Assembly: GCA_022510385.1 (NCBI GenBank)
Contig: JAFLTQ010000002.1
Location: 124,001 to 188,000 of the forward strand
Source of the DNA: Muribaculaceae bacterium
GTDB lineage: Bacteria; Bacteroidota; Bacteroidia; Bacteroidales; Muribaculaceae
DNA length: 64,000 bases
Direction of reading: 5' to 3'
The notes under the pieces were generated by a model that saw only the letters and a list, made by a program, of their open reading frames with translations, was not told where the DNA came from and searched no databases. Made by a program: the position numbers and the translations under genes. The first letter of the stretch is position 1. Each line of letters starts with the position of its first letter. Positions 2,891 through 49,458 of this stretch are shown here, in pieces.

Positions 2891-3856
2891 ATGAAAAAAT
2901 CAATTCTATTGTTTATCCTGTTGTTTACAATAGGTCTGCCCCGGCTGGCCCAAGCTGCCGAACAAAACGACAGTATCTATCTGATGGCTTATTTCAAAGG
3001 TCCTTCCCAACATCTCTTTTATGCTCTAAGTGAAGACGGGCTACATTGGGAAGAGGCAAACGGAGGGGAACCGATTTTCTGTGCCTACGATGAAAGGATA
3101 TGGATGAGAGATCCTTTTCTGCAACGCGTAGACAAGGATGGCAAAACCACTTTTCATTTGGTGCATACATGGGGATGGGATAACCCCGCAATTTTCCATT
3201 GGGAATCAGATAATCTTGTTGACTGGAAGAGTGTTGACGGAGGAAGAGACACCGACTCCGGCAAAATCTATGTGATGGACGGTAAGGATGGGAGACCGGC
3301 TTCCCCTAATGCATGGGCACCGGAATTCACTTATGTGCCGGAAGAGGACACATACTATGTATATTGGTCGTCACGCGTAGATAATCGGCAGCTCCACTAT
3401 GTGACGTCCACTAAAGATTGGATAAGCTTCACAACGCCTCAGGTGCTTTTTGATCCCGGGATTACTGCGATAGACCTTACAGTGGTGCCTCACAATGGTA
3501 AGTATTACGGTTTTTACAAAGATGAGAGAAACGGAAGAAAGACTATTCTGAGGGCAATCACCACATCCTTGAATCCCGAAGTTGATACTTTTAAAGGAGT
3601 GGAGGAAGTGTTTCCCTCAGATTTTAATGTTGAAGTGGAGGGTCCCTCAGTTTTTGCCAAGTTAGATGGTTCTGGATGGATTGGATATGTAGATGAATTT
3701 AATGGCGATAAAGGGTTGATTTTTGCAGAATGTGATGATTTGGAGCAACCATGGAAAATAATTCCGAAAGATATGATAAAGAATGTTCCGGATGTGAAAC
3801 ACGGATCTGTAATCAAGATATCACGAAAAGAGGCTGCAGCTTTGGGTCGTAAATAA
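2891..3856 (+). CDS. GH43-like five-bladed beta-propeller glycosidase, secreted
   Basis: This 321-residue protein has a clear signal peptide (LLFILLFTIGLPRLAQA). Its motifs fit GH43-type arabinosidase-like propellers: WMRDPFL (Asp74, candidate base), NAWAPEF, an Asp in IDLTVV (Asp195, candidate pKa modulator) and VEGPSV (Glu250, candidate acid). It is short for GH43, with no C-terminal beta-sandwich. The canonical N-terminal ADP motif is absent and RDPF seems to take its place, as in the branch close to GH117-like enzymes. The substrate cannot be read from the sequence; furanosides or galactosides are likely. It is coupled to the GH36 gene (25 bp gap), so the pair may trim the same side chain. 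A palindrome followed by a T-rich run ends the unit. Confidence 0.8.
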   Translation: MKKSILLFILLFTIGLPRLAQAAEQNDSIYLMAYFKGPSQHLFYALSEDGLHWEEANGGEPIFCAYDERIWMRDPFLQRVDKDGKTTFHLVHTWGWDNPAIFHWESDNLVDWKSVDGGRDTDSGKIYVMDGKDGRPASPNAWAPEFTYVPEEDTYYVYWSSRVDNRQLHYVTSTKDWISFTTPQVLFDPGITAIDLTVVPHNGKYYGFYKDERNGRKTILRAITTSLNPEVDTFKGVEEVFPSDFNVEVEGPSVFAKLDGSGWIGYVDEFNGDKGLIFAECDDLEQPWKIIPKDMIKNVPDVKHGSVIKISRKEAAALGRK

Positions 3857-4173: not shown

Positions 4174-6594
4174 TTATTTTACTATTACTTTAGAAGCTTT
4201 GCCGTCCACTACCATGATTACTATCTGACCCGGAGCAGGATTGCTTATCTCATTACCGGTGAGGTTGAAGAAACGAGCATTGCCGCTGATTTCTAGGCTG
4301 TCGATCGCAGATGTATCGTCGTCGTCTTTCGGTTCTTCAACTTCTTCACCACCCTGTTCTTCATCTTCTCCACCTCCTACTTCCTCTTTCTCGATGACAA
4401 CAGTTTCCTCAATTTCAGCGTTGATGTTTTCAGTGCCTACGAGGATGAAGCCGGCCGGGATAGTGACAGTGTATTCACCAACAGGGTAACCTTCGAGCTC
4501 TACAGTCAAGACTCCTTCCAAGGCACTTACCTTCGGTTCGAGATCCTCAATATCAAGTTCCTCATCATCAGTCACAACAGAGATAACGAGATCTTCATCG
4601 TTAGCGAGTTGGATGTCAACGTCGAAAGCTACGGTGAAACCGTTTTCGATTTCCCTAACCTCTCCATCAACTTCAGTTCTTGCGATTTTAATGGTTTGGT
4701 CTTTTACAGCTGCATTGATAAAATCTTCACCTACGTTAACGAAGCCGGCCGGTATAGTGACAGTGTATTCACCCACAGGATAGTCTACGAGTTCAACGGT
4801 GAGAACATTGTCTTTAGGAGTAACTTTAGGAGTTAAATTCGTAACATCAACGTCAGCGGGAGCTGTAACGGTTATAACAGCCTCTTCGTCTTCAGTGAGG
4901 TCGATATCTTCGTCGAAAGTAACTGTGAAACCATTTTCAATTTCATCGATAGTGCCTTCTACTTCCTCTTTTACTTTCGGTTCAAAATATAGAGCATGAA
5001 GATTTGCACCATCTTTTCTGTTCAATACAATATAAAGTTTGTGTTTGCCGAATAGAATTGTTGGATCTGCAAGTAAACCACGAGAACCTAATACATTACC
5101 CCATCCACTTGTTTCTTGAACTGGGATTTGAGCAATAGGAGTTTCAGAATTCCATTCCTCCTCACGATCCCACTCCACTGATCCATAGTTTTCAAGGTCG
5201 ATATAAATTTTATAGTTAGAATCTTCAGAGTTAATATATTCGTCATTACCTGTAGCATATTTAGCAACTATGCTTCTAAATTCTATGTTCCCGAAATCAA
5301 GTTCTTCACCTTTATCATCGGTGATTCGAAGTATTGTTCCCTTATTAGTATATCCTACATTACCGGCACTTTCCCATTGACCTGTTTTTAGGATTGTGCA
5401 CATCCATTTATCATTGAAAATCTTGGATTCTGCATCGACTCCATCAGTTCTATTATTACCATCTTTAATTATAAAATCTAAAGTAATCAGGCCTTCATTT
5501 GTAATTGGATCTACATTAGATGGGAATAGATAATCATCAGGGAACTGAGTTACAGGATATAGATTGCCTTCATAAAAACTAACATTCATAATATTATTAC
5601 CTCCATCATTTCCCCATTTAAGGATGACATCATGCTCACCACTTACTTCTCTTTCCAGGTTACAAACCAATGGGATATAAGGCTGCCCATTCCATGCCTC
5701 CATACCATACCATATACACCCGATTCTGTTGCCATCAGTTACTTCGTCTATATAAATTTCGAGTTGTCTCTTTAATCTAACCTTAGCATCATAATCAGAA
5801 AGTTTAGCTTCTAATAAAATTTGGTTATATTTATTTGAGCCAAAATCAACTTTGGATTTAGATTTCATCTCAAGATTATTTCCAGTCCAACCGATAGAAC
5901 CATCGGAATCAATTTTTCCGGAATCATCTCCATTGCCTCCTCCGGATCTTGCAAATTCCTTACCTTCAATAACTACAAATTTATCCTGGTACTTATCTTT
6001 ATTTTCGTAAGGCCAAAGAATGCGTTTACCATTATCGCCATCGTTTATATATATATTATCGTATGGTTTAGTATAAGAAGAGCTGTTATAATAATCGCTT
6101 TCTGTATAAGCTTCTTCTACAAATCCTACTCCAAAGAGGTTTCCTGATCCGTTTTCAAATGATAGATATACATGTTGAACACCTGTTGGCGCTTCTGAAT
6201 AATTATCTACATTTTTACCAAAGTTCTGTCCAAACCTTCGTGGTAAATAGTATGTATAAAATTCTTTAATTGGTATTTTAACAAATGCCTCAGAGCTGCT
6301 ATAGTCACTTCCGGCGCTTAAAACCACATAACCGTCAGTTTGCCAACCATTTGCGAGATCTACAAATGCACCTTTGAATTCGTTGGCGGAAAAGTCAACT
6401 TCGCCCAGATCAAGAACCAAACCATCTATATTTCCCAAAAGATCATTTAATTCATCATATTTTGCGTTTCCTTCAGCGAACTGAAGGTTATTGTTATGAT
6501 GGTCGATTTTGATATAAACATCCTCGGCCGAGATGGTTGGGGAAGCGAAAGCAAGCGCCGCCAAACCACAGAAAAATGTAACAACTTTTTTCAT
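4174..6594 (-). CDS. CBM6-like multi-module secreted protein with two Ig-like domains
   Basis: This is an 806-residue non-enzymatic protein with a signal peptide (VVTFFCGLAALAFASPTISA). Residues about 25-545 hold three beta-sandwich modules like CBM6; the first and third end in the CBM6-type pattern (HKLYIVL then GANLHALYFEP in the third). Two near-identical Ig-like repeats follow (about 548-640 and 641-740), each running from IENGFTV to YPVGEYTVTIPAGF. An acidic linker (about 740-763) leads to a C-terminal tail, RFFNLTGNEISNP to KASKVIVK, which looks like a T9SS or surface-sorting signal. The likely role is glycan binding at or outside the cell surface. No catalytic motif is visible. It is a paralogue of 6859-8916 and 21668-23575; only this copy has the second Ig-like repeat. 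It has its own operator-promoter at 6645-6697. Confidence 0.8.
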   Translation of the reverse strand: MKKVVTFFCGLAALAFASPTISAEDVYIKIDHHNNNLQFAEGNAKYDELNDLLGNIDGLVLDLGEVDFSANEFKGAFVDLANGWQTDGYVVLSAGSDYSSSEAFVKIPIKEFYTYYLPRRFGQNFGKNVDNYSEAPTGVQHVYLSFENGSGNLFGVGFVEEAYTESDYYNSSSYTKPYDNIYINDGDNGKRILWPYENKDKYQDKFVVIEGKEFARSGGGNGDDSGKIDSDGSIGWTGNNLEMKSKSKVDFGSNKYNQILLEAKLSDYDAKVRLKRQLEIYIDEVTDGNRIGCIWYGMEAWNGQPYIPLVCNLEREVSGEHDVILKWGNDGGNNIMNVSFYEGNLYPVTQFPDDYLFPSNVDPITNEGLITLDFIIKDGNNRTDGVDAESKIFNDKWMCTILKTGQWESAGNVGYTNKGTILRITDDKGEELDFGNIEFRSIVAKYATGNDEYINSEDSNYKIYIDLENYGSVEWDREEEWNSETPIAQIPVQETSGWGNVLGSRGLLADPTILFGKHKLYIVLNRKDGANLHALYFEPKVKEEVEGTIDEIENGFTVTFDEDIDLTEDEEAVITVTAPADVDVTNLTPKVTPKDNVLTVELVDYPVGEYTVTIPAGFVNVGEDFINAAVKDQTIKIARTEVDGEVREIENGFTVAFDVDIQLANDEDLVISVVTDDEELDIEDLEPKVSALEGVLTVELEGYPVGEYTVTIPAGFILVGTENINAEIEETVVIEKEEVGGGEDEEQGGEEVEEPKDDDDTSAIDSLEISGNARFFNLTGNEISNPAPGQIVIMVVDGKASKVIVK

Positions 6595-6858: not shown

Positions 6859-8916
6859 TTATCTTACGAGCACTTTAGAAGCTTTACCGTTAACAACCTT
6901 GATGCAGATCTGACCTTTTGCAGGATTGCTGATCTCTACGCCGCTGAGGTTGAAGTAGCGAACGCTTTGGCTCACTTCGATGCTGCTGATGGCAGAAGTG
7001 TCTTCATCTTCCTCCTCCGCATCCTCCATCTCTTTCTCTATAACAACTCTTTGGCTGATCACTTTGTTGGTGTAATCGTCGCCTACGTTAACATAACCCG
7101 GAGTGATGGTAACTGTGTAAGCCCCTTCAGGATAACCTTCGAGAACCACTGTGAGTACATCACTTTCATAAGATACAGTCGGAGTCAGGTCGGAAACGTC
7201 TACGCCTTCAGGTCCCTCTACTGTAAGTGTAGCATTTTCATCACCCGAGAGTGTGATATCCTCATCGAAAGTAACGGTGAAACCTTTATCAATTAACTGA
7301 ACTGTTCCGGTTGTACCTTCTCTGTCGGCTGTACCACCCGGTTCGAAGTATAGTGCTTTCAAGTTGGCACCATCAGAACTGCTCAATACGATATAAAGTT
7401 TATGTTCACCTTTGAGACTTGAAGGATCGATTACGTCTCCACGTACACCATATGCGGTAGACCAGCCTCCTGTTGACTGAACTCGAACTTGAGCCACCGG
7501 AGCTACCTGACTGAAGTCAAAGTTTTGCCAATCGTTTATTTCTTCATTATCCTCAAGGTCTAAATAGAGCTTATAATTGGATTTTTCGATAGGACCTCTG
7601 TATGAACCATCGCCGGTTGAATAGTTTGCTACAATAGTACCGAAAGATGTGTTGCCAAAATTATAAGCGTCTCCATTGGCATCTGTTATGCGAAGAACGG
7701 TACCGTTGTTGGTGTAGCCTACATTATCATCTTCCCATTGGCCTGTATTTAAGATTGTACATTTCCAGTCTTCATTATATATCTTGGAGTTATCATCTCC
7801 GCCAACATCTTCCCTTGTATTGCTTGCACTTTGTCTGAAATCGAAAGTAAGAAGACCGTCACTTTCTATCGGCTCCTCATTAAGAGTATATGTGTAGGGA
7901 TCCGGATTTAGAGTAGGATGCCATACATTCCCTTCAAAGAGTTCCAATGAGAAGAGATTCGGACCGTTAACTACATATTTTACAGTTACGGTATGGTTGT
8001 CACCCGTATAAGTTTTATTCAAATTGGCAACGATCGGCAAGAAACCATTATTATTAATTTGTTGACCACAGTAAACTTTACCGGCCAATTTGTCATCAAT
8101 ATAGATTTCCATAAACCTATTGACGTCATTCTTACCGTCAGCTCTTACAAGGAAAACAGCCTGCTGAATTTGCTTGTCGCCGAAATTTACATTTTTGGCC
8201 TCAAGAGTGACTCCATCACTAATCCAACCCCAAGAATCGTTGGCGGTGTCGATGTGAGGAGGATCTCCGTCTGTCACTTCCGGACCTACACTTGCGAAGT
8301 CTGATGCTAAGAGTACAACTTTTTTATTATCGTAATCGGGATGTTGGCTCGGATAACGGAGCCGTAACCCTACCAATCGGGAATCTACTGTCCAGTAACC
8401 GTCTTTGTCGTCAGCTTGAATATAATCATCGTCATCATATGTGCTCTCATTAAGTCCTACGCCCATTACGTTGTCAGTGAAGCCATCATATTTAAGCCAA
8501 AGTTGCTGTACGCCTGATACAGTGCTGTTTTCAATGTTTGCTCCATATGGACGACCCACCTGATAGCTCAAGTCATTAATCCAAATAGGAATACTTACAA
8601 CTTCTGTTGCATTGTTATAATCATCACCGGCACAAAGAATAATATTTCCGGTAGCATCGCCCCACCCGCGACCGAGTTCTACGAAAGCTGATTTGAATTT
8701 ACTGCCATCGCCGAAATCAACAGGTCCGAGTCCTATAATTGTCTCTGAGCTTGTGTTACTGATCAAGTGACTGACATAATCTATTAGACCGGCCCCTATA
8801 ATCTCGAGATCCGGATTCTGATCACTGGCCGGAAGGTAAACATCTTCGGCCGAAATGGTTGGCGTCGCTATAGTGAGCGCCGCTAACCCGAATAAAAGTG
8901 TAAAAACTTTTTTCAT
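6859..8916 (-). CDS. CBM6-like multi-module secreted protein with one Ig-like domain
   Basis: This 685-residue paralogue of the 4174-6594 protein has the signal peptide VFTLLFGLAALTIATPTISA. Three CBM6-like modules cover about residues 25-530; the last ends HKLYIVLSS, GANLKALYFEP. One Ig-like domain follows (about 535-630, KGFTVTFDEDI to YPEGAYTVTITPGY), then a short acidic linker and the sorting-type tail RYFNLSGVEISNP to GKASKVLVR. It should be an exported glycan-binding protein. No catalytic residues are recognisable. It has its own promoter and terminator, so it is transcribed alone. The short DNA between the two paralogues and the similar upstream boxes point to local gene duplication. 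Confidence 0.8.
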   Translation of the reverse strand: MKKVFTLLFGLAALTIATPTISAEDVYLPASDQNPDLEIIGAGLIDYVSHLISNTSSETIIGLGPVDFGDGSKFKSAFVELGRGWGDATGNIILCAGDDYNNATEVVSIPIWINDLSYQVGRPYGANIENSTVSGVQQLWLKYDGFTDNVMGVGLNESTYDDDDYIQADDKDGYWTVDSRLVGLRLRYPSQHPDYDNKKVVLLASDFASVGPEVTDGDPPHIDTANDSWGWISDGVTLEAKNVNFGDKQIQQAVFLVRADGKNDVNRFMEIYIDDKLAGKVYCGQQINNNGFLPIVANLNKTYTGDNHTVTVKYVVNGPNLFSLELFEGNVWHPTLNPDPYTYTLNEEPIESDGLLTFDFRQSASNTREDVGGDDNSKIYNEDWKCTILNTGQWEDDNVGYTNNGTVLRITDANGDAYNFGNTSFGTIVANYSTGDGSYRGPIEKSNYKLYLDLEDNEEINDWQNFDFSQVAPVAQVRVQSTGGWSTAYGVRGDVIDPSSLKGEHKLYIVLSSSDGANLKALYFEPGGTADREGTTGTVQLIDKGFTVTFDEDITLSGDENATLTVEGPEGVDVSDLTPTVSYESDVLTVVLEGYPEGAYTVTITPGYVNVGDDYTNKVISQRVVIEKEMEDAEEEDEDTSAISSIEVSQSVRYFNLSGVEISNPAKGQICIKVVNGKASKVLVR

Positions 8917-9433: not shown

Positions 9434-12400
9434 ATGAAACTCAAACACTATTTTAGACATGGATGTCTCGGTCTTATGGCTTTGGTTGCCATGAGCACAT
9501 CGATGCCTATGTCTGCGGAGACAGCACGTGTCCGACATGTGTTGAACCCTAATGCAGTGAGACAGACCAATGAAGGATGGGGTGTCTCTCTCTGTTGGTG
9601 GGCAAACATGTGCGGTAATTGGGATGATGCCAAAATCGACCAGTTGGTAGATTGGTTGGTAAGTGAAACCGGATTGAACTATAACGTATTCCGTTACAAC
9701 ATTGGAGGTGGCGACGATCCGAGCCATACCCACATGCAGAACGGGAAAGGAATCCGGGCTGAGATGCCGGGCTTCAAGGCATCCGCGACTGCAGATTACG
9801 ACTGGACTCAGGATGCGGCCCAAAGAAAGATAATGCTGAAGATAAAGGAGAAACGCCCTGACGCAATCTTCGAGGCTTTCAGTAACTCTGCTCCCTATTG
9901 GATGACCACAAGCAAATGTTCATCCGGAAACTCGGGATTTCTTAACCTTACTGCATCTGAGAATCTTCCGGCAAGCAGTTATACTGATTTCGCAAACTAT
10001 CTGGTGGATGTATGCAAACACTACAAGGATACTTATGGGATAGAATTCAGAACATTGGAACCTTTCAACGAACCGAATACAACTTATTGGAAGAAGGAGG
10101 GGGATCAAGAAGGTTGTGTTTTTAATCCATCATCACAGGTTGCCTTTATAAAGGTGTTGAAGCCCATACTTGAAGCATCGGGTTTAAAAACTGTTATCTC
10201 TGCAGCTGATGAGACATGTCTACAGACAGCCGTTTCAGGGTTCAAGCAGTATCAGAGTTCAAACATATTGGATATGGTGGGTCAATTCAATGCACACAGT
10301 TATACTTCTACCGCCTATCCTACAACCAATACTACCCGTTCCCAGTTCAGTGCGTTGGCTCATGGAACAGGTAAGAGGGTGTGGCAAAGCGAGACAGGGC
10401 CTATCGATCTTAACCTTAATGATGCCTACGCTGAGATGCTTGTAATTGCACAGCGTCTGATTGAGGACGTGAAATATATGGAATCTGAATCTTGGCTTGA
10501 CTGGCAGTATGTAGAAGAATGGAGCGAACAGTGGTGTCTTGTTAAAGCAGGGGATTTCAATAACCCCAATATGGAAAGGACGAAGAATTATTACTTGCGA
10601 CAGCAGGTGACCCGTAATATCAGTCCCGGTTATAAGTTTATCTCGACTGACAGTGACAATGCATTGGCGGCTGTAAGTCCCGACGGCTTAAGAATGGTGT
10701 TAGTGGTGGTCAATCAAGGCACAGATCCTGTCAGACATGAATTCGTTCTTTCAGGTTGTTATGCATCGGGTTTACCGATAGCTTACAAGACCACACAGGA
10801 AAACAATTATGCACGAATTAGTGTGGAAGAGAACGACGGAGTGTACGGTCTTGAGATTCCCGCCAAAAGTGTCGTGACATTCTTAGTGAACCTGCAGCCG
10901 TGGCAAGCTGCCGAGGAGGGTATTATTGATGGCGGCTACTATATGATCAAACCGCAATACAACCAACAAAGAGCATTGGTGGCCAACAACGGAGCGCTTA
11001 GCGTTCAGGACATCAATCATAACGGAACTTGGGAAGGCAATAACCTCTCTTCTCCGGTGGCCGGGAATATTGCATGGCAGGTTATAGATTATGGAAATGG
11101 CTATGCTTTGAAAAATGCCGAAGGTTATTTATTATATTTAGATGGCAACAATCTGAAAGCTACGAAAGATGTTGACGTGGCAATGAACGGTTGTGAATTC
11201 GGAATCGAAAGCGTGACTCCCTTGCATTATAGAATTACGTCAGCAGGCAAAGCGTTGTCGAATTCATCGGGCACAACCGTGACAATGGCAAATAACGGTA
11301 CAGATCTTTCCCAGGGACAGCTCAACTGGATTCTTGTGCCGGTGAATGTAACATCCACTCAGGATGATGAGGCCGATCAACCGGCAAGCCCGGATCCCAT
11401 TCCTGACAATATCGACTATTCCAACTGGATGGCAGATATCCCGGATGCAGCCTTGGTGACTATGCTATCAATCCCGGGGACCCACGATTCTGTGACAGGC
11501 GAAGGCTTCGCAAGCAGTTTAACTGCATGGTCTGCGCAAACCCAGGATCAGACCCTCGAACAGCAGTTCGCCCTCGGTATCCGTGCCCTCGACCTCCGAC
11601 CCGGTTTGAACGGAAACACTTTGTATTGCTACCATGGAATAGCACAGCTCAAACTGACAATGGAACAAGCTCTTAAGAAAGTGACAGCCTTCCTTGATGC
11701 ACACCCCACAGAGTTCTTCGTGATTCATCTTTTCCCGGGGAACGACAGTAATGGGGCCACAATCAAGGATCCGATGAATGCTTTGTTGTCTCAGGCTGAC
11801 ATCAACCCCTATCTTGCAGAGTTCCGCCCCGGTCTAACAGTGGGAGATATGCGAGGTAAGATTGTCTTCATAAAAAGATGGGATTTCGACGAATGGAAAT
11901 CACCCTATGCTTGCCGTGTGGACAACTGGAATGATACAGAGAATAATGACGGCGTGACTTACAAGTATCCTAACGGAACAATCAAAGTAGATGACAATAC
12001 ATTCTATTATGAACCTGACCTCTGCGTACAAGACCTTGCACAGACAGAAACGGCTGCTAAGATGAATGCCAAGGTGAAGGCCATGCAGGATTTGGTTGAC
12101 CACACATCCGCTTTAGGCTTCCAGAACCGGAACACATTGACATGGAGCTTCAACTTCCTTTCAGCTTATGCCGGTAGCACATCCACAGGGAGTGGTTATG
12201 GTCAAAATGCCAACAGACTCAACAAGGAGATGATCGATAAGATCACGAGCGATTCTTATATTCCCGGACCTCTCGGAGTAGTAATGATCGACTGGGTTGG
12301 CGGTACAACTCACTCTTGCCCTAAATTGTTAGGAAGCGACACTTGGAATACCTACGGAGAAGAGGTTGTGCATAGAATTGTGAACAACAACTATCGGTAT

Positions 12401-14524
12401 ATCAATCAGATCACACCAAAGGTTGCAGCCCCGACATTTATCAGAGTAGACAAGAGCTCGAGCGCTCTGAAGCGTAACGGATATAGGGGTAACCTCGAAT
12501 TCGTTGACTTCGACAACGACGGCAATCTCGACCTGTTGCAGCGTCACCGCCAGGCAAATCAAAGCTGGAGCATCGAAAACAACATCTATTTCAACGACGG
12601 GAATTCTTTCAGTAAACAAAGCAAAATATCTGACGACGGTCTTTCTTTGACAAGAATAGTCGTTCCTTTGGATTACAACCGCGATGGGAAGGTTGACTTG
12701 CTTTACGGATTGAATACATCGAAATTTGCCGTCAACCAGGGCTCGGGAACCTTCAAGCTTAACAGTACGGTTGTTCTTCCGAGCGGCTCTACTCTTGGTA
12801 TGACCGATGCTATCATCGAGCAGAGAGGTGACGGAATGTTGGTGCCGGTGGATCTTGACATGGACGGCTATCCGGAGCTTGTGACCTTTGATGCCACCAA
12901 GACGGCACTCGCCGACCCGATGGCCGGTTTGCCTATCCTTTATGTCAGCAACAAGGGTAAATACACAGCATCGACAGTAGAACTTCCTAAGGTGAAGGGA
13001 GGCACAATAGCTGTTGGCGATATCGACAATGACGGTCGTTCAGACCTTGTGATCACCGGTCAGAACCAGTCGGGAGTTAACGAATTATGGGTATGCATGA
13101 ACAAAACAGACGTACAGAGTCAAATAAAGTTTGAGAATGTTCTTCTTGAGAATCTTGCTGACTATGCAACCTATCATGGGGCAATATCACTTGCCGACCT
13201 TAATAACAACGGATATCTTGATATAGTCATAACGGGAGCAGTCAAGACAACGAGTCGTTCGTTCAATGTATTGCTAAACCGCGGTAACCTTAATTTCGAG
13301 GCAGTAAGAAATCCGGGTCTGACTCCTTTACGCTACTCAAGCATCGATATCAAGGATCTTAACGGTGATGGGTATGCCGACATAGCCTATATGGGGGATT
13401 CAAGCAAAGGAGCAGTTGCAGGAGTAGTGATGAATCAGAGAGACGGTAAGTTTGCAGATTTCAATATCGACTTCCTGATGCTCGGCAGCGGCGGTAGTGT
13501 AAGAATAGCAGATTATAACAATGACGGACATCCTTCGATAGCATTCATGGGGAATTCAAAGAACAGTGAATACTTCGCGCTCTACGATCAGGTTGTTGCT
13601 CCTGTAGCCAAGGTGTCGGCTGATTTGTCAGCAATGAAAGTAGAGTCAACAATTTCTGAGGATGATCTCGGCAGAGTGGTGATCGAATGGGATGATCTTG
13701 ACCCCTGCTACAGATATAATTATGTTGTGAAACTTCTCAATGGTGACATCGTTGCAGCAGTACCCGTAACGGTAAATGAAGAATCAGGATCTCTGTTGCT
13801 GTCAAGGACAGTGACAGCTGTTGGAGGAAACAAGGTTGCCCTAAACATCGATCGAGCCGACGTTGAATCATACGGCGTACATGCCATAGCGGCTGACGGC
13901 TCCACATCAATGATTTATCTTAAAGATGATATCAAGGTTGATGACGGCGATGACGACGGCGATGACGACGGCGATGATGATGATGACGATGACAATGGCG
14001 ACAACACCGATCCGGGTGATGGCGGCGACAATGGCGACAACAACGATCCGGGCGATAACGGCGACAACGGCGACAACACCGATCCGGGTGATAACGGCGA
14101 CAACGGCGACAACAACGATCCCGGCGATAACGGTGACAACGGCGACAACAACGATCCGAGCGATAACGGCGACAACGGCGACAACAACGATCCCGGCGAT
14201 AGCGGCGACAACGGCGACAACAACGATCCCGGCGATGGAGGTGATAACGGCGACAACAACGATCCCGGCGATGGCGGCGACAATGGCGACAACAATGATC
14301 CCGGTGATGGCGGCGACAACGGCGACAACAACGATCCCGGTGATGGCGGCAACCCGGGCGGGGATGACAACTCAGGTGTCGGTTCAATGTCGAACGAAGA
14401 AGCTACTCCCGAATATTATGACCTACAGGGCCACAAGGTGAGCAAACCCGGTAACGGCCTTTACATAGAAAGAATAGGGAATAAAGTGACGAAGAGAATA
14501 TTCAGGAACGGCATAATGCAATAG
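9434..14524 (+). CDS. GH30 - beta-trefoil - PI-PLC X - FG-GAP fusion enzyme, secreted
   Basis: This 1696-residue protein has a signal peptide (MALVAMSTSMPMSA). Residues about 30-490 form a GH30 domain of the endo-beta-1,6-galactanase-like type: GWGVSLCWWAN, acid/base Glu213 in EPFNEP, nucleophile Glu320 in QSETGP. About 495-640 is a ricin-like beta-trefoil. About 660-985 is a phosphatidylinositol-specific phospholipase C X domain with His684 (IPGTHDS), Asp720 and Arg722 (LDLRPG) and His734 (CYHG), the bacterial PI-PLC catalytic set. FG-GAP repeats (DFDNDGNLDLL type) run from about 1000 to 1390, then a beta-sandwich. Ten acidic 12-residue repeats follow, and the tail EYYDLQGHKVSKP to KRIF looks like a sorting signal. 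PI-PLC enzymes cleave PI or GPI anchors, so the protein could both depolymerise and release GPI-anchored proteoglycans. That combined role is inferred. A strong terminator follows. Confidence 0.85.
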   Translation: MKLKHYFRHGCLGLMALVAMSTSMPMSAETARVRHVLNPNAVRQTNEGWGVSLCWWANMCGNWDDAKIDQLVDWLVSETGLNYNVFRYNIGGGDDPSHTHMQNGKGIRAEMPGFKASATADYDWTQDAAQRKIMLKIKEKRPDAIFEAFSNSAPYWMTTSKCSSGNSGFLNLTASENLPASSYTDFANYLVDVCKHYKDTYGIEFRTLEPFNEPNTTYWKKEGDQEGCVFNPSSQVAFIKVLKPILEASGLKTVISAADETCLQTAVSGFKQYQSSNILDMVGQFNAHSYTSTAYPTTNTTRSQFSALAHGTGKRVWQSETGPIDLNLNDAYAEMLVIAQRLIEDVKYMESESWLDWQYVEEWSEQWCLVKAGDFNNPNMERTKNYYLRQQVTRNISPGYKFISTDSDNALAAVSPDGLRMVLVVVNQGTDPVRHEFVLSGCYASGLPIAYKTTQENNYARISVEENDGVYGLEIPAKSVVTFLVNLQPWQAAEEGIIDGGYYMIKPQYNQQRALVANNGALSVQDINHNGTWEGNNLSSPVAGNIAWQVIDYGNGYALKNAEGYLLYLDGNNLKATKDVDVAMNGCEFGIESVTPLHYRITSAGKALSNSSGTTVTMANNGTDLSQGQLNWILVPVNVTSTQDDEADQPASPDPIPDNIDYSNWMADIPDAALVTMLSIPGTHDSVTGEGFASSLTAWSAQTQDQTLEQQFALGIRALDLRPGLNGNTLYCYHGIAQLKLTMEQALKKVTAFLDAHPTEFFVIHLFPGNDSNGATIKDPMNALLSQADINPYLAEFRPGLTVGDMRGKIVFIKRWDFDEWKSPYACRVDNWNDTENNDGVTYKYPNGTIKVDDNTFYYEPDLCVQDLAQTETAAKMNAKVKAMQDLVDHTSALGFQNRNTLTWSFNFLSAYAGSTSTGSGYGQNANRLNKEMIDKITSDSYIPGPLGVVMIDWVGGTTHSCPKLLGSDTWNTYGEEVVHRIVNNNYRYINQITPKVAAPTFIRVDKSSSALKRNGYRGNLEFVDFDNDGNLDLLQRHRQANQSWSIENNIYFNDGNSFSKQSKISDDGLSLTRIVVPLDYNRDGKVDLLYGLNTSKFAVNQGSGTFKLNSTVVLPSGSTLGMTDAIIEQRGDGMLVPVDLDMDGYPELVTFDATKTALADPMAGLPILYVSNKGKYTASTVELPKVKGGTIAVGDIDNDGRSDLVITGQNQSGVNELWVCMNKTDVQSQIKFENVLLENLADYATYHGAISLADLNNNGYLDIVITGAVKTTSRSFNVLLNRGNLNFEAVRNPGLTPLRYSSIDIKDLNGDGYADIAYMGDSSKGAVAGVVMNQRDGKFADFNIDFLMLGSGGSVRIADYNNDGHPSIAFMGNSKNSEYFALYDQVVAPVAKVSADLSAMKVESTISEDDLGRVVIEWDDLDPCYRYNYVVKLLNGDIVAAVPVTVNEESGSLLLSRTVTAVGGNKVALNIDRADVESYGVHAIAADGSTSMIYLKDDIKVDDGDDDGDDDGDDDDDDDNGDNTDPGDGGDNGDNNDPGDNGDNGDNTDPGDNGDNGDNNDPGDNGDNGDNNDPSDNGDNGDNNDPGDSGDNGDNNDPGDGGDNGDNNDPGDGGDNGDNNDPGDGGDNGDNNDPGDGGNPGGDDNSGVGSMSNEEATPEYYDLQGHKVSKPGNGLYIERIGNKVTKRIFRNGIMQ
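13994..14353 (+). repeat. Ten tandem 36-bp repeats encoding GDNGDNNDPGD(G/N)
   Basis: The repeat encodes ten 12-residue units (consensus GDNGDNNDPGDG, variants T for N, S for G, N or S at the end). It is preceded by an Asp-rich run of DDG. The Asp/Asn/Gly spacing resembles calcium-binding loops, so the region is probably a rigid, calcium-dependent linker between the catalytic part and the sorting tail. Near-identical codons suggest recent expansion by slippage or recombination. It is coding and is not a CRISPR array. Confidence 0.85.
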
Positions 14525-14697: not shown

Positions 14698-16941
14698 CTA
14701 AATGGTTATGCTAAATGATTTTGTTTGGTCGGAAGATGATCCGATGCCAATAATATATTCCCCGGGTTCCACCTTATATTTTCCATCGGGAACATACATC
14801 TTTAACTCGTCAACCGGTATATCTATGGAAACATTAACCGTGTCACCGGCCGGCACATTCACTTTTTTGAAACCTTTAAGTTGCTTTACCGGCGTAAGAA
14901 TGGATGAGACAGGATCGGAAACATATACCTGCACAACATCCTTACCATCCCTTGCTCCGGTGTTTTTTACGTCTAAAGTCACATTAATCATATCACCGTT
15001 CACATTAACTTTCTCATTGGAATATTCGAAATCAGTATATGACAGGCCGCTTCCGAAAGGCCAAAGGGCATATGGTTTCTCAAAAATATAACGGTTTGCC
15101 GGATTTTCAAGAGAGCCTCCATGATCTCCGGCATACTCCTTGTCGGTGGGATAATAATTGTAGAAGCAAGGAAGATTGCCTGTGGAACGTGGGAATGACA
15201 CGTTTAATCTGCCTGAAGGGTTCACGTTCCCGAGGATAACATCTGCGAGTGAGTTACCTTGTTGTTCACCGGCATACCACTGCACAAGAAAAGCATCTGC
15301 ATTATCCTTCACCCAAGGCAAAGCGAGGGGTTTGCCGGATATAAAGGCCACAATAATAGGCTTGTTTAATTTCTTGAGTTCCTGCAAAAGTTTGAGCTGC
15401 TGCCCGGGCAATTCAAGCGACGAGAGATCAAAACCCTCCCCGGCAGTGGTGTGCTTCGGATTTCTGGCAAGATAAGTTGAGCGCGTGCCTACTGCAGCGA
15501 TAATTACGTCGGCATCCCTTGCTGTCTCAATTGCTTTGTGGATGTTAGAATCATCCTGACTCCACCAGTCACATCCTTCTTCATATCTGATATGGACATC
15601 TTTGCCTCCCTTTTCTTTGAGAGCCTGAAGGAGAGTGACCCCGATATTGTTGTCGTTCTGCACCCAGCTGTAGTCACCCATAACAGCATAATCGGCGTTG
15701 GGACCAACCACAGCTATATTCTTGTATTTGTTAAGGTCGAGAGGGAGTATCCCATTATTTTCAAGCAAAATCACACTCTCGTCAGCCACCTCCTTTGCCA
15801 AAGCGATGTGTTGAGGGGAATGAATGAGAGTCATGTCATACGGATTACTATTCCCGGGATTGTCGAATAATCCGAGCCGGAATTTTGTTTTAAGAATTCT
15901 TCTTACAGCCTCATCAACTAATTCAACGTCAACCAGACCCTGATTAACCTGGTCGACAAGTGATTTGTAGCAATCATCAATATCAAGGTCAATTCCGGCA
16001 TATAAAGCCTGACGTGCCGCCTCCTCGTTAGAGGCTGCCGTATGGTGGAAATTATTAAGACGTTCCACAGATCCCCAGTCTGAATATACATAACCGTCGA
16101 ATCCGAGTTCGCCTCTGAGAATATCGGTCATGTAATAGCGCGAGCCGGTGACCGGGACACCGTCATAAGCGCTGTAACAACTCATTATAGCCAATGGTGA
16201 ACTCTTTTCTATCACTTTTCTGAAAGGATATAGATAGAGATTATGAAGCTCCAGGGTGCCTCCGGGCACACTCGCACAGTTAAGGCCTCCTGTGGGAGAA
16301 CCGTGAGCGACAAAATGTTTTGGCATACAGGCAACCCCATTTTCCTGATATCCGTTGACAAAAGCAGAGGCAATTTCGGATATCAGGAAGGGGTCTTCTC
16401 CATAAGTTTCTTCAATACGTCCCCATCTCAGTTCACGTGCAATATCAAGCACCGGAGACAAAACCTGGCGATGGCCGATTGCCTGTGCCTCAGCGGCACA
16501 CGCTTCAGTCATCCGATAAATTAAGTCGGGATTAAAAGTCGAGCCTTGTGCAAGGGCATGGGGGAAGAGTGTGCAACTGTCCTGCAGAATTCCCTGGATT
16601 CCTTCAACGCATATGATTACAGGGATTCCGAGACGTGTGTTTCGCATGTAAGAGTTAAGGGTGTCGATTCGAGCCTTACATTCATAGGCCGAAGTGTTCA
16701 TTTCATGTATGGTACCCACACTTTTGCCTCCGAAATTATAATCGAAGGAATCGGGACCACCCAATGCGCGGTTTTGAAGCTGAAGCACCTTTTCCTCTAA
16801 AGTCATCCTGCTTAGGAGGTCTTCAACTCTGTCGTCGACATTATAGTTTTTGTTTTTATACAAAGGAGTCACCTCAGCGGTGACAGACATATTAAAAAGG
16901 GTTATTAAACCCAATAATAAGAAAGAATGGCGGTTAATCAT
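14698..16941 (-). CDS. GH3 beta-glycosidase (BglX-like), secreted
   Basis: This 747-residue exo-acting beta-glucosidase-type enzyme has a signal peptide (FLLLGLITLFNMSVTA). The GH3 TIM barrel starts with VEDLLSRMTLEEKVLQLQ. KHFVAHG and GYVYSDWG are present; the nucleophile is Asp288 in SDWG. The alpha/beta sandwich with AVGTRSTYLARNP follows, and a fibronectin-III-like domain closes the protein (GLSYTDFEY onward). It has no PA14 insert, unlike the GH3 at 57617. It lies 104 bp after the GH2/FG-GAP gene on the same strand, with a hairpin between them. No own operator-promoter is seen. Beta-glucosidase or beta-xylosidase specificity cannot be separated from the sequence. Confidence 0.92.
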   Translation of the reverse strand: MINRHSFLLLGLITLFNMSVTAEVTPLYKNKNYNVDDRVEDLLSRMTLEEKVLQLQNRALGGPDSFDYNFGGKSVGTIHEMNTSAYECKARIDTLNSYMRNTRLGIPVIICVEGIQGILQDSCTLFPHALAQGSTFNPDLIYRMTEACAAEAQAIGHRQVLSPVLDIARELRWGRIEETYGEDPFLISEIASAFVNGYQENGVACMPKHFVAHGSPTGGLNCASVPGGTLELHNLYLYPFRKVIEKSSPLAIMSCYSAYDGVPVTGSRYYMTDILRGELGFDGYVYSDWGSVERLNNFHHTAASNEEAARQALYAGIDLDIDDCYKSLVDQVNQGLVDVELVDEAVRRILKTKFRLGLFDNPGNSNPYDMTLIHSPQHIALAKEVADESVILLENNGILPLDLNKYKNIAVVGPNADYAVMGDYSWVQNDNNIGVTLLQALKEKGGKDVHIRYEEGCDWWSQDDSNIHKAIETARDADVIIAAVGTRSTYLARNPKHTTAGEGFDLSSLELPGQQLKLLQELKKLNKPIIVAFISGKPLALPWVKDNADAFLVQWYAGEQQGNSLADVILGNVNPSGRLNVSFPRSTGNLPCFYNYYPTDKEYAGDHGGSLENPANRYIFEKPYALWPFGSGLSYTDFEYSNEKVNVNGDMINVTLDVKNTGARDGKDVVQVYVSDPVSSILTPVKQLKGFKKVNVPAGDTVNVSIDIPVDELKMYVPDGKYKVEPGEYIIGIGSSSDQTKSFSITI

Positions 16942-17045: not shown

Positions 17046-20000
17046 TTAATAAGCTACGAGCAGCTTTTGGGTTTCCAATGATTTAGGACCGGCAAACCTT
17101 ACAACCAGAATACCTTCAGGCAAATTCTCCGCTACCCCTTCAGTAGCGTTGGTGGCTGAAAAAACCTTTATTCCTTTGTCATTATATATGGATAAGGCAT
17201 TAAAATCGGGACTTAATGAATAGTGAAGGTTGCTTCCCTCCAATGATATTTTATTATGTTTTTTTACTACGATTTCTCCGACACCTGCAGAGGAGGGATT
17301 AAACTCTCCTTTAGCGAAGACGCCGGCTGCTTTTCCGTTGTCGATGGCCTGCACTCCCCATTCATAATCGGCATCTTCCAAGGGTATCCTCATGGAATAA
17401 TAGTTGGTGGTGATGGCCGATGTCAGTTCGTCGGTCTTAATAAAACCGGTTTCGGGAGTAACCGGAAGCACGGCGGCAATTTTGTCAGATCCTTTTTTCC
17501 TTACATAAAGATTGTATCTGAGAGCCTGAGAAGGAGTGGTGTCGTCTTCGGGAGCACTCCATGAGAAAGTGGCAACTCCGGTTTCATTGTTGTAAGCCAC
17601 CTTAATGTTTTCAGGCTTGGCTGGAGCTGCGTTGGGCTCAGCAGCAGTATTGTTTTTGTAAAGGACGGTGAGACAGTCGGAACCTTGGTTGCAACCTCCG
17701 GCAGTCCATCCCATTAGCCATGCGTCGAGAAAACCGTCCCCATTATAATCAACGAGATGGTTATTTCCATGGCTTACCCTTGCGAATGAATTTGTGCCTT
17801 TCACGTCATTGAAATATGTCATTGTGGGAGTGAAGGAGAAATCACCTTTGTTCATATAAGCCCATGAAGTGATTTCATGTCCGGAGGTGTCGCTATGTCC
17901 ACCTAAGATAATATCTAGCTTTCCATTGTTGTTGATGTCACCTAAAGCCGGGAGGGCACCATCGACTCCTTCAAAACCGCAATCCGATTGCTGCATGAGT
18001 GTGAATAGACGCTCTCCGAGATTCCTGTAGATGAATACAGATTTTGCATTCCCGCCATTAACGCCTGAATATCCCGTGACGAGGATATCCTGCAGGCCGT
18101 CGTTGTCGAAATCACCCACAGCAACGGATGAATTGTAGGAACCTGACAAAACTTGTCTTTCTTCACTGAAAGTGCCGTCGCCGTTATTCCAGTAGACGCG
18201 AAGATTCCCCTCGTTGACACCATATCCTGAAGCCACAATGTCTAAAAGAGCGTCATTATCCATATCGGCAAAATAAACCGACCCGCAAGCCAGGCGCGCA
18301 AAGGGTGCTTGGCCGTCAAGAGGGTTTTCTATCAATTTGAAACCGTTTCCACCTTCATTATGGAAAAGATATACCGCTCTTTTGTCGGAATAGACATAAG
18401 TTTCTCCTTCCTCATCAGTGAATTCATAATCGTCACGTCCTGTGATAACTATGTCTTGAAAACCGTCGTTGTCGTAGTCACCTACCGCAACCCAGTGGCG
18501 ACCTCTACCTCCCCCCATGTCGTTATAAAGGGGAAGAAGACCCATCAGGTTATTTTCTACAGTGGCTTGATTAACCTCTTCAAACTTGCCGTTTCCGTTG
18601 TTATGAAAAAGGAAAGCTGCCTTGTCTTCGATACCATTGGAATAGTTGTAGGTTTTGAGACCGGGAATGAATAAATCTACATTGCCGTCGTTGTCATAAT
18701 CGATAGCCACAGGGCAGGAAAAGAAGCAGTTGGCCAAAGGGTTATTCTGTTCAGAAAAGGAATCGTTGCCGTTGTTTTTATAAATCACCGACATGTTGGG
18801 AGCCGTAGTTGAATGGCTGTTGCGGCCGGTGTAAGCAACCTCTAACTTGCCGTCATTGTCTAAATCAGCCCAGACTACATTGTTTCTGTCGGCAGTGTGG
18901 CGAAATTCCTGGGATAATTTTGAGAATTTGGGAGCCTGCACAGCTTCCGGTTCCGTGAAATCAGTATATTCCACATCTTTGATATCATCGAAGTTTTCCT
19001 CATAATCGAAGTCGGCTTCTACGATTGCCGAGATACCCACATCCATTATCTGTTCACCCGAACCTTGTCTTCCGGCTACGGCGATAAGATTCCATGCGTT
19101 AGGTTTCAAGGCTGCGAGTGCATCCGGGAAAATCTCAACATTGGAGTATCCCATCATGTAACCGCCTCTTTTGGCAGCCGGGACGCCGTTAATGTATACA
19201 TCCATGTCATCATCATGGAAGATAGTGAGTCGAAGATTTTCGAAGAGATTTTCATCAAGGTCGCCGAGATAGAACCAGCGTCTCATGAATATCTGAGGAG
19301 TAGTCCAGGATGTGCCGATATATTTATTATTTGGGGCATTCATACTACCGAACGCAGCGAGTCCCTCTTTCCATTGGCTGTCGTTGAAACCGGGTTCATT
19401 CCAATGGCGAGGCACATTGTCGAGAGTGTAGCGCCATTTGTATTTATGGTCACGTGCGGTTGACAGAATGGTCTTCACCATCAGATTGGTTTGCGGTAGG
19501 TTTACACACTCTACGATCTGATTTTTCAGCTCTCCATAAGGAGAATAAGGTTTCATCACCTTTCTGTCGTAGGTCATAATACCGTTTTTCTCGATTTCGA
19601 CATCGGCAATCTGGGTATAAACGGCAGCATTCAAGCCATCGAGATAAAGGTTTTTGATTTCCTTGCAGAGATTGCCGAAATATGCTGTAAAGTCTTCGGG
19701 AGCCTCCACTGTTGTGTATTGGAAGTCGCCGCCGGGCCAGATATGTCCCGGAATTTTAAGAGTTATACCGCCGTATTCTCCACACACAGCAGCCCTATTG
19801 GTTGCGGAAGGGCATGATGGCCATGGATAACTGTGACTGTCTCGGATATCACCGATTTCATAGTCAGTCCAACCGCTGGCACAACAGATGAGTGATGTCT
19901 TTCCGAATCTTGAAGGAGAAAGTCTGTTAACCCATGAATCTACCCTCTGAGTCATTCTTTCGGTGTCAAACTGTCCCCACCCTTCGTTGAATACTACCCA

Positions 20001-21305
20001 ATGTATTATTGAGGGGAAGTTTTTCAGAGCCTTGACAATGTTCTCTGACTCGGCTTCGAAATTGCTCTTGGCAAACTCTTCATGGCCGGCTACAATATTC
20101 GGACTTGGGAGATCCTGCCATACTAAGAGACCCTCCTTGTCACAGTAATAATACCAGCGAGCCGGTTCAATCTTGATATGCTTTCTCACCATGTTGAAAC
20201 CAAGATCTTTCATCACCTTGATATCATACAATAATGCATCGTCGGAAGGAGGTGTATACAGACCGTCGGGCCACCATCCTTGATCCAGCGGACCCATCTG
20301 GAATATCTGGTTGTCATTAAGATATATACGAGGAATGTTGTTATTATCTTTCTTAACTTCAATTTTTCTCATTGCGCAGTAACTGTCGACTGTATCAACA
20401 ACTTTACCATCCTTGAGGAGATTGATTTTCAGATCATAAAGATAAGGCGATTCAGGCGACCAAGGCTTAACATCTCCGGAGAAATCAATAGCAGTTGCCA
20501 CTCCGGGCTTCACATTGGAAATGGTTCCCACTTTCTCGCCCTCTTTGTTGAAAACAGAAGCTTCAAAAGTGAGATTAGCGTCTGATCCTCCCGCATTTAC
20601 AGTTATATAGAGTTTCTTCTGATTCAGGTTTGGTTCAAGTTCAAAGTCTGCAATATAAGATGAAGCAACCGGTTCGATCCAAACTGTCTGCCAAATACCG
20701 CTGACAGCAGTATACCAGCAAATAGACGGATTTTTTGACTGCTTGCCCGTGGGCTGACCTTCTGAGCCGGTGTTGTCATAGACATAAACAGCCAGTTCCT
20801 GTGGCCCGGAGGGATTCAACGCGTCGGTGATATCGAAGCTGAAAGGATCGTAACCACCGGTGTGGCTCCCTACCAATTTTCCATTTACATATACCTTTGT
20901 TTCCCAGTCGACAGCTCCGAAATTAAGGAGTATCCTGTCGCCGTCAAAACTTGCGGGCACCTCAAAGTTGCGTTTATACCAGTAGCATTGTTCATCGCTT
21001 TTTTCCATCACTCCCGAAAGGGCTGATTCGAGAGGAAAGGGGACAAGAATTTCTTGATCATACGTGAAACTCGCAGAGTAGTTTTCACCCTTTTTACCTT
21101 TCCTAAGATCCCAAATTCCGTTCAGGTTCAGCCATTTCCCCCTTTCCATCTGAGGACGCGGATAGTCCGGCAAAACATTGTCGGGGTTAATTTCATTAGC
21201 CCATTTAGTCATCATGGGGCCTTGTTTCACTTGCCAGGCTCCGGTCGGGGAGGCGGCAAATAAAAGCGCCATGCATGTCAATGCTGTTGAAAGTAAACTT
21301 TTCAT
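17046..21305 (-). CDS. GH2 glycosidase fused to FG-GAP repeats and a T9SS-type tail
   Basis: The protein has 1419 residues when started at the ATG at 21305, which directly precedes the signal peptide MKSLLSTALTCMALLFAA; a start ten codons upstream would add a non-signal extension. The N-terminal part is a GH2 enzyme: sugar-binding beta-sandwich (WLNLNGIWDLR), Ig-like domain, and TIM barrel with acid/base Glu441 in NEGWG and nucleophile Glu510 in CGEYGG. A further galactose-binding-like domain follows (about 600-760). FG-GAP repeats run from about 790 to 1240 and match the protein at 28620-30599. A fibronectin-III-like domain and a typical T9SS type A tail (ALSIYNDKGIKVF to TQKLLVAY) end it. 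Beta-galactosidase-type activity on a surface or secreted enzyme is likely. The operator-promoter at 21446-21498 drives it. Confidence 0.88.
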   Translation of the reverse strand: MKSLLSTALTCMALLFAASPTGAWQVKQGPMMTKWANEINPDNVLPDYPRPQMERGKWLNLNGIWDLRKGKKGENYSASFTYDQEILVPFPLESALSGVMEKSDEQCYWYKRNFEVPASFDGDRILLNFGAVDWETKVYVNGKLVGSHTGGYDPFSFDITDALNPSGPQELAVYVYDNTGSEGQPTGKQSKNPSICWYTAVSGIWQTVWIEPVASSYIADFELEPNLNQKKLYITVNAGGSDANLTFEASVFNKEGEKVGTISNVKPGVATAIDFSGDVKPWSPESPYLYDLKINLLKDGKVVDTVDSYCAMRKIEVKKDNNNIPRIYLNDNQIFQMGPLDQGWWPDGLYTPPSDDALLYDIKVMKDLGFNMVRKHIKIEPARWYYYCDKEGLLVWQDLPSPNIVAGHEEFAKSNFEAESENIVKALKNFPSIIHWVVFNEGWGQFDTERMTQRVDSWVNRLSPSRFGKTSLICCASGWTDYEIGDIRDSHSYPWPSCPSATNRAAVCGEYGGITLKIPGHIWPGGDFQYTTVEAPEDFTAYFGNLCKEIKNLYLDGLNAAVYTQIADVEIEKNGIMTYDRKVMKPYSPYGELKNQIVECVNLPQTNLMVKTILSTARDHKYKWRYTLDNVPRHWNEPGFNDSQWKEGLAAFGSMNAPNNKYIGTSWTTPQIFMRRWFYLGDLDENLFENLRLTIFHDDDMDVYINGVPAAKRGGYMMGYSNVEIFPDALAALKPNAWNLIAVAGRQGSGEQIMDVGISAIVEADFDYEENFDDIKDVEYTDFTEPEAVQAPKFSKLSQEFRHTADRNNVVWADLDNDGKLEVAYTGRNSHSTTAPNMSVIYKNNGNDSFSEQNNPLANCFFSCPVAIDYDNDGNVDLFIPGLKTYNYSNGIEDKAAFLFHNNGNGKFEEVNQATVENNLMGLLPLYNDMGGGRGRHWVAVGDYDNDGFQDIVITGRDDYEFTDEEGETYVYSDKRAVYLFHNEGGNGFKLIENPLDGQAPFARLACGSVYFADMDNDALLDIVASGYGVNEGNLRVYWNNGDGTFSEERQVLSGSYNSSVAVGDFDNDGLQDILVTGYSGVNGGNAKSVFIYRNLGERLFTLMQQSDCGFEGVDGALPALGDINNNGKLDIILGGHSDTSGHEITSWAYMNKGDFSFTPTMTYFNDVKGTNSFARVSHGNNHLVDYNGDGFLDAWLMGWTAGGCNQGSDCLTVLYKNNTAAEPNAAPAKPENIKVAYNNETGVATFSWSAPEDDTTPSQALRYNLYVRKKGSDKIAAVLPVTPETGFIKTDELTSAITTNYYSMRIPLEDADYEWGVQAIDNGKAAGVFAKGEFNPSSAGVGEIVVKKHNKISLEGSNLHYSLSPDFNALSIYNDKGIKVFSATNATEGVAENLPEGILVVRFAGPKSLETQKLLVAY

Positions 21306-21445
21306 AGTATTTTTAATTTTATATATAATTCTCAAACCATTTTTGCCTCCGGTAATAAAGATGCTGGAAAGATGTTATTCTATTTAGGTTAACTTTAAGA
21401 AAAGTTCCTTCAGTATCCTCTTAACGATAGGCAATTTTGTAAAAA

Positions 21446-31691: not shown

Positions 31692-31722
31692 GGCTGTAAA
31701 TGTCATAAGTGTGGTAATTGTC

Positions 31723-35721: not shown

Positions 35722-35726
35722 AATCG

Positions 35727-35769
35727 CAAATATAGAAAGATATAAAATCCTATTCTTTTCAAAAAATAA
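35727..35769 (-). promoter_or_regulatory. Operator (35760-35769) and -7 box (35727-35734) of the HTCS gene
   Basis: The plus strand reads CAAATATA (perfect reverse -7 box) and CAAAAAATAA 25 bp further, with ACATTAG and CATTAA beyond as in the copy at 522-546. The spacing is 10-11 bp shorter than in the other copies, about one turn of the helix. The -7 box is only 5 bp from the ATG, so the transcript would be nearly leaderless. Confidence 0.5.
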
Positions 35770-35862
35770 AACATTAGTCGCATTAATCAACTCCGAAGGG
35801 GTTAGAATGAATAGATTAGGAATAAGGGGGAAGGGTGACGATTAAGTTTTAAGCGTTCTGTA

Positions 35863-49429: not shown

Positions 49430-49458
49430 CCTAAGTTCTATTAATTATAGATTTAATC

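Follow-up and report, generated by a model that had tools for sequence, protein, structure and literature searches.

We analysed a 64,000-nucleotide stretch of a Muribaculaceae bacterium genome (contig JAFLTQ010000002.1, positions 124,001 to 188,000; hereafter the window) and found that the gene at 9434-14524 on the + strand encodes both a GH30 glycoside hydrolase and a phosphatidylinositol-specific phospholipase C (PI-PLC, or PLC) in one polypeptide. The predicted protein, read from one draft genome, is a new combination of known enzyme types. We propose, with a probability of roughly 45%, that it is a two-enzyme protein for glycosylphosphatidylinositol (GPI)-anchored arabinogalactan proteins (AGPs) of plant membrane or wall debris. 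Titles and abstract openings in the openly licensed literature yielded no description of a GH30/PI-PLC-type fusion or of a PI-PLC in polysaccharide loci.

Two complete catalytic sets in one polypeptide

The open reading frame (ORF) starts with ATG and runs stop-free for 1,696 codons. Its product consists, in order, of a GH30 module, a trefoil, the PI-PLC domain, an FG-GAP propeller, a beta domain, an acidic repeat and a tail. The N-terminus is hydrophobic and signal-like (residues 1-29, 9434-9520; hydropathy maximum 1.99 over 12 residues), and the protein is probably secreted and held at the surface. A sequence-only reading of the same DNA had placed GH30, PLC, trefoil and FG-GAP parts in a single chain, and domain and fold searches bear this out.

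The GH30 module, a subfamily-5-like barrel with a beta-sandwich, covers residues ~31-490 (9524-10903). Pfam Glyco_hydr_30_2 (PF14587), the family named for it by the sequence-only reading, matches with an E value of 4.5e-22 and 79.3 bits against a curated cut-off of 27. In a PDB search the nearest solved structure is 24td (4.9e-41), with AcXbh30A as runner-up (2.5e-11). The structure 24td is that of Sa16Gal30A, a secreted GH30_5 endo-beta-1,6-galactanase from Streptomyces avermitilis, whose Gln229 reads the axial O4 of galactose (PMC13431644). Glu213 (acid/base) and Glu320 (nucleophile), which the sequence-only reading had taken for a complete-looking active site, align to the catalytic glutamates of this enzyme, and the module also has Asn212, Gln225, Tyr290, Trp357 and Trp367. 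Because the nearest solved enzyme belongs to GH30_5 and the galactose-reading glutamine is retained as Gln225, a predicted beta-1,6-galactanase activity is favoured over beta-1,6-glucanase. The glutamine alone does not prove membership of subfamily 5, since the GH30_4 chain 3clw has it in the aligned position as well. Of the two activities offered by the sequence-only reading, galactanase also gains from a GH43_24-type exo-beta-1,3-galactanase encoded in this locus. NCBI's model for BT3312, a beta-1,6-glucanase, is absent among the protein's matches at E 1. In a GH30 tree from which L112 was excluded, the window branch is long and weakly placed (86/77).

The Bacillus-type PI-PLC domain occupies residues 661-1004 (11414-12445). 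A fold check found the PI-PLC TIM barrel in this segment. Its H684, D685, D720, R722, H734, R815, D867 and D953 align to His32, Asp33, Asp67, Arg69, His82, Arg163, Asp198 and Asp274 of the Bacillus enzyme (1gym), and these positions are invariant in all 28 aligned PLC domains. The suspected catalytic histidine, aspartate and arginine residues therefore correspond in the alignment to those of Bacillus PI-PLC. Pfam PI-PLC-X (PF00388), through which the domain had been expected to show itself, gave no match on the fusion protein even at E 10 or on the whole genome, in a scan that was silent in every control genome as well. This silence is no proof of absence, because the matches to PI-PLC structures, the alignment and the fold are all positive. 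Among relatives, PF00388 matched two of eight at E 0.01 (0.0057 and 5.8e-8) and neither of two more at E 0.001; those that it missed nevertheless align with B. cereus-type PI-PLC.

Between the two enzymes lies a ricin-type beta-trefoil (residues 495-637, 10916-11344). A PDB search with this segment matched trefoil chains, and RicinB_lectin_2 matched four of the five sequences in the trefoil alignment, the window row alone being the non-matching one. Two AlphaFold models were made of parts of the protein outside GH30; in the first, block means over the trefoil are mostly below 60 and make that part unusable. A polar linker follows (residues 638-660, 11345-11413), with no hydrophobic segment such as a second signal peptide would have: the hydropathy maximum at the GH30-trefoil/PLC junction is -0.49 versus 1.99 at the N-terminus, and by hydropathy there is no signal peptide remnant. 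A phylogeny of 28 PLC domains places that of the fusion with four from PLC-FG-GAP proteins (support 98/95), while L140, a fifth PLC with FG-GAP repeats, branches apart from them. Since the separate halves occur in relatives, the PLC clusters with PLC-FG-GAP domains and the linker is non-hydrophobic, the gene resembles a junction of two proteins, one GH30-trefoil and one PLC-FG-GAP, with the linker standing in for the signal peptide of the latter. Each of the nine 500-base segments between 9500 and 13999 has 43-49% G+C, and the value does not jump at the junction.

A proposed route to GPI-anchored arabinogalactan proteins

Plant AGPs, which the sequence-only reading did not name, are a concrete candidate because a galactanase-like GH30 and a GH43_24-type enzyme share the window and because many AGPs are predicted to carry GPI anchors. 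The latter enzyme, an exo-beta-1,3-galactanase by its matches, is encoded at 30681-31772 on the - strand (6eug, 6.5e-90; 3vsf, 1.7e-57; 5flw, 5.4e-39). PDB labels for its matches vary (6eug, beta-glucanase; 3vsf, ricin B lectin; 7bys, galactan 1,3-beta-galactosidase; 5flw, exo-beta-1,3-galactanase); we take GH43_24 to be its subfamily and 6eug/6euf to be Bacteroides enzymes of that kind. In type II arabinogalactan, beta-1,6-galactan branches sit on a backbone of beta-1,3-galactan (PMC13431644), so the GH30 of the fusion and the GH43_24-type enzyme fit one substrate. As to the anchor, a review lists 55 of the 85 AGPs of Arabidopsis as predicted GPI-anchored proteins and draws their release by PI-PLC; the sole plant GPI structure then available is Man-Man-Man-GlcN-inositol on phosphoceramide (PMC7769824).

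Two further genes of the locus support this context. One is GH36 alpha-galactosidase-like (688-2865, +). The other is weakly arabinofuranosidase-like (2891-3856, +): NF052546 matches it at E 1.4e-13 with 51 bits, where the cut-off is 500, and a PDB search at E 0.01 returned nothing. An alpha-Gal-(1->3)-Ara unit is present in the AGP of gum arabic (PMC8939339). Of the parts expected in a type II arabinogalactan locus, the GH43_24-type gene and a hybrid two-component regulator (31723-35790, -) lie on the fusion's side, and a SusC-like/SusD pair (46331-51480, +) lies in the opposite half.

In the mechanism that we propose, the trefoil and propeller would hold the protein on the glycan. The PI-PLC domain would attack the inositol phosphodiester of the anchor by metal-free general base/acid catalysis with His684 and His734, helped by Asp953 and Arg722, roles that we presume to carry over from the Bacillus enzyme. 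Cleavage would free the AGP from its lipid, and the anchor cut combined with trimming of beta-1,6-galactan would bring a membrane-tied AGP within the cell's reach. The domains, their folds, the aligned catalytic residues and the neighbouring genes are observed, while we infer AGPs as the substrate, GPI over plain phosphatidylinositol (PI), and the action of both steps on one molecule.

Should this hold, gut bacteria would obtain plant glycoproteins tethered to membranes by severing the lipid anchor in addition to the sugar, a step not met in the descriptions of glycan loci found in the openly licensed literature. The fusion would then be a single enzyme that releases and trims GPI-anchored AGPs, and would offer a first clue to the role of PI-PLC genes in gut Bacteroidales. 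The best independent hint that PLC-FG-GAP proteins serve glycan loci comes from G702, a genome of the same genus, in which a hybrid regulator, a GH36 and a GH2 are followed by two consecutive PLC-FG-GAP genes, with a GH95 two genes on. We hold only tentatively, and with some doubt, the wider idea that the fusion is a bacterial enzyme dedicated to GPI-anchored AGPs, one polypeptide cutting anchor and glycan, and that in related gut Bacteroidales the PLC-FG-GAP genes supply the anchor-cutting function of glycan loci.

Evidence against the proposal and alternative explanations

Several findings weigh against the AGP proposal, beginning with the rarity of the gene: the GH30-PLC fusion is a single occurrence in one genome. 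The sequence-only reading had suggested looking for its architecture in other Bacteroidales, and no second fusion appeared among the genomes scanned. No match row besides that of the gene itself spans both halves in 111 genus, 393 order and 395 class genomes (overlapping samples, with at most two candidates scored per genome in the order and class scans). With a 974-residue query at E 1e-20, 12 of the 111 genus genomes match: the fusion's own with both halves, six with the GH30 half (the trefoil was inspected in five of these) and five with the PLC half. At a looser E of 1e-10 over 101 genus genomes, the only other one with both a PLC and a GH30-type match (weak, 3.9e-11), G720, has them on different contigs. 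Forty-one of 72,556 plasmid records match and none covers 80% in one place.

The PLC domain itself is more widespread, with matches at E 0.001 in 57 of 297 family genomes. We inspected the ORFs of 30 loci from this search and of 20 larger regions; the remaining matches lie mostly in open frames below 460 residues, too short for a fusion, and the longer frames left out were those of G112, G023, G082, G098 and G020 (785-902 residues), G051 (566), G085 (577) and G148 (481). A pattern scan in which each species was represented by a single genome gave 295 relatives, from which 78 loci were kept. All 78 contain a PLC ORF, and GH30 occurs in that ORF in none. Titles of 23 of the 78 relatives name ruminant or deer, and the bacterium that carries the fusion is probably an animal gut inhabitant. 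Across 197 loci, PLC and GH30 share an ORF in just three, all of which contain the window's own gene; the loci have truncated flanks, and a fusion involving a more distant PLC could escape. The domain assignments are firmer than the sequence-only reading could make them, but the anchor-plus-glycan idea rests on a single gene.

Details of the PLC domain point the same way. K115 of Bacillus cereus/thuringiensis PI-PLC (1ptd, 1gym) is replaced by Phe, and Tyr200, presumably an inositol contact, by Ala, with Tyr in only four of the 28 rows. Strand Vb has been tied to good GPI cleavage by bacterial PI-PLC (PMC5773145). On our reading a candidate strand Vb would lie in the R815-D867 stretch, where strands are predicted but model residues 350-366 have a predicted local distance difference test (pLDDT) score below 50.

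Gene context is also less favourable outside this locus. Taking the nearest ORF on each side, excluding those below 220 or above 900 residues, and tabulating the 25 commonest of 119 families, we found among 92 PLC-gene neighbours in the 78 loci two members each of GH36, GH43 and alpha-L-fucosidase; the commonest families, Mg-chelatase-like and HAD-hydrolase, have five each. That PLC genes generally lie within glycan loci is unsupported, there being no recurrent carbohydrate-active enzyme (CAZyme) among these neighbours, and GH36-type genes near the PLC in L114, L147 and L153 are too few for an association. Within the window, GH92, GH38-like and BT3312-like GH30 genes are unexplained by type II arabinogalactan.

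The chief rival holds that the PLC acts on plain PI or lyso-PI in membranes of the plant or the host, in inositol phosphate scavenging or membrane opening, while GH30, trefoil and propeller merely dock and the activities are independent. PI, lyso-PI and GPI are all substrates of bacterial PI-PLCs (PMC5773145), and the free PLC genes of relatives, with their mixed neighbours, fit this explanation, as does a fusion of PLC to a purple-acid-phosphatase-like enzyme in L035, which suits phosphate scavenging. We nevertheless regard it as rather unlikely: here and in G702 the PLC sits among glycan-degradation genes, and its fusion partner is galactanase-like with complete catalytic residues. That partner and the plant-glycan type of its neighbours also speak against the shaving of GPI-anchored proteins from the animal host. 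The PI-PLC fold and residues do resemble those of bacterial enzymes that release GPI proteins; set against the ruminant and deer titles as well, we find this explanation very improbable.

The target could also be a different GPI-anchored glycoprotein, such as the mannoproteins of fungal walls that GPI remnants link to beta-1,6-glucan, in which case genes in the locus's right half would take part. A mannose- or beta-1,6-glucan-containing substrate is conceivable because that half (+ strand, 37922-63487) has two GH92, a GH38-like gene, two GH30, a GH3 and the sole SusC/SusD pair, and the GH30 at 56199-57623 matches the BT3312 model at 3.7e-50, below the model's cut-off. The GH30 of the fusion, however, matches a galactanase and leaves the BT3312 model unmatched at E 1, and a GH43_24-type enzyme has no part in fungal wall breakdown that we are aware of; the fungal target seems improbable. 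Quite improbable, too, is a recent accident or assembly chimera with no joint function. Its single occurrence, the 53 contigs of the source assembly and the separate presence of both halves in the genus would agree with such an origin, but the frame is open throughout, G+C is even, the linker takes the place of the PLC signal peptide and both catalytic sets are complete.

Other features of the gene and the window

Downstream of the PLC, the fusion continues with a seven-bladed FG-GAP beta-propeller (residues ~1010-1395, 12461-13618), in which seven calcium-type Dx[DN]x[DN]G loop repeats and the propeller fold were both found. A beta-rich domain with no Pfam name (13619-13933) is common to the PLC-FG-GAP proteins of relatives. 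It is followed by an Asp/Gly/Asn-rich repeat linker (13939-14350; G+C 57%) of 12-base and then 36-base units, the latter in 10.0 copies at 13991-14350. The C-terminal tail (14381-14524) is sorting-signal-like and is likewise common to PLC-FG-GAP proteins. That shared tail, together with SprA, which the source genome encodes, leads us to infer type IX secretion as the export route, but the type IX secretion system (T9SS) sorting-domain model TIGR04183 has no match in the protein at E 1.

The fusion gene is the sole + strand gene among minus-strand neighbours. On the - strand lie a GH3 (14698-16941), a GH2 with FG-GAP repeats (17046-21335), a SASA-type esterase (23684-25630), a further GH2 (25700-28594) and a stand-alone FG-GAP protein (28620-30599). 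FG-GAP repeats thus recur in the region, also at L091:18298-19998, in the manner of a common docking module; the 17046-21335 and 28620-30599 products are 43.6% identical over 544 residues. Three paralogues (4174-6594, 6859-8916 and 21668-23575, -) are 31-40% identical over most of their length and have no Pfam match above cut-off, and the third has a T9SS sorting-domain match. The + strand from 35913 to 63487 holds a GH2, the two GH92, a CotH kinase-like gene, an alpha-galactosidase-like gene (42761), SusC/SusD, the tandem GH30 genes (54767 and 56199), a GH3-PA14 and the GH38-like gene (60329). Only one SusC/SusD pair is seen in the window, and none occurs among seven ORFs scanned in the 20 kb before it. 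A third GH92 lies past the window end (L092). Fimbrial genes, with a Mfa2-like anchor and a fimbrillin C-terminal domain, stand shortly upstream of the locus (L091:9644-14754, -).

Comparison with known systems

Both enzymes of the fusion resemble characterized proteins. Glu217, Glu320, Asn216, Gln229, Tyr294, Trp350 and Trp359 of Sa16Gal30A correspond to Glu213, Glu320, Asn212, Gln225, Tyr290, Trp357 and Trp367 in the fusion. In contrast, its Trp222 is Tyr218, the distal-site Trp341 is Tyr348, Arg301 and Asp302 are Thr301 and Arg302, and Asp354 and Pro355 of subsite -2 are Glu361 and Glu362; Lys114 is unaligned, and an alignment gap lies beside these positions. Sa16Gal30A carries no PLC. In Bacillus PI-PLC, R163 and D198 are 35 positions apart, compared to 52 from R815 to D867 in the fusion.

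The PLC-FG-GAP proteins of relatives (L098/L114, L031/L113, L032/L115) share the PLC, propeller, beta domain and, where reached, the tail in the same order, but start with a signal-like stretch before the PLC and have no GH30. At L032:6000-14325 (+) three PLC genes are consecutive, all FG-GAP-matching, the first weakly (7.2e-5). Conversely, proteins of the genus at L093-L097 have a GH30 followed by a trefoil-like segment, yet differ in an extra N-terminal trefoil-like domain (Pfam was run on L093 only) and lack PLC and propeller. Their neighbours show no resemblance at the cut-off to the window's other proteins, except for one L097 match to the C-terminal tail segment. The closest parallel to the joining of a PLC domain to a second enzyme is in another genome of the same family, at L035:8050-11820 (-), where the partner is a purple-acid-phosphatase-like metallophosphatase and the PLC is C-terminal; L038, L040 and L046, whose N-terminal parts fall outside the scan, have their PLC in a similar position.
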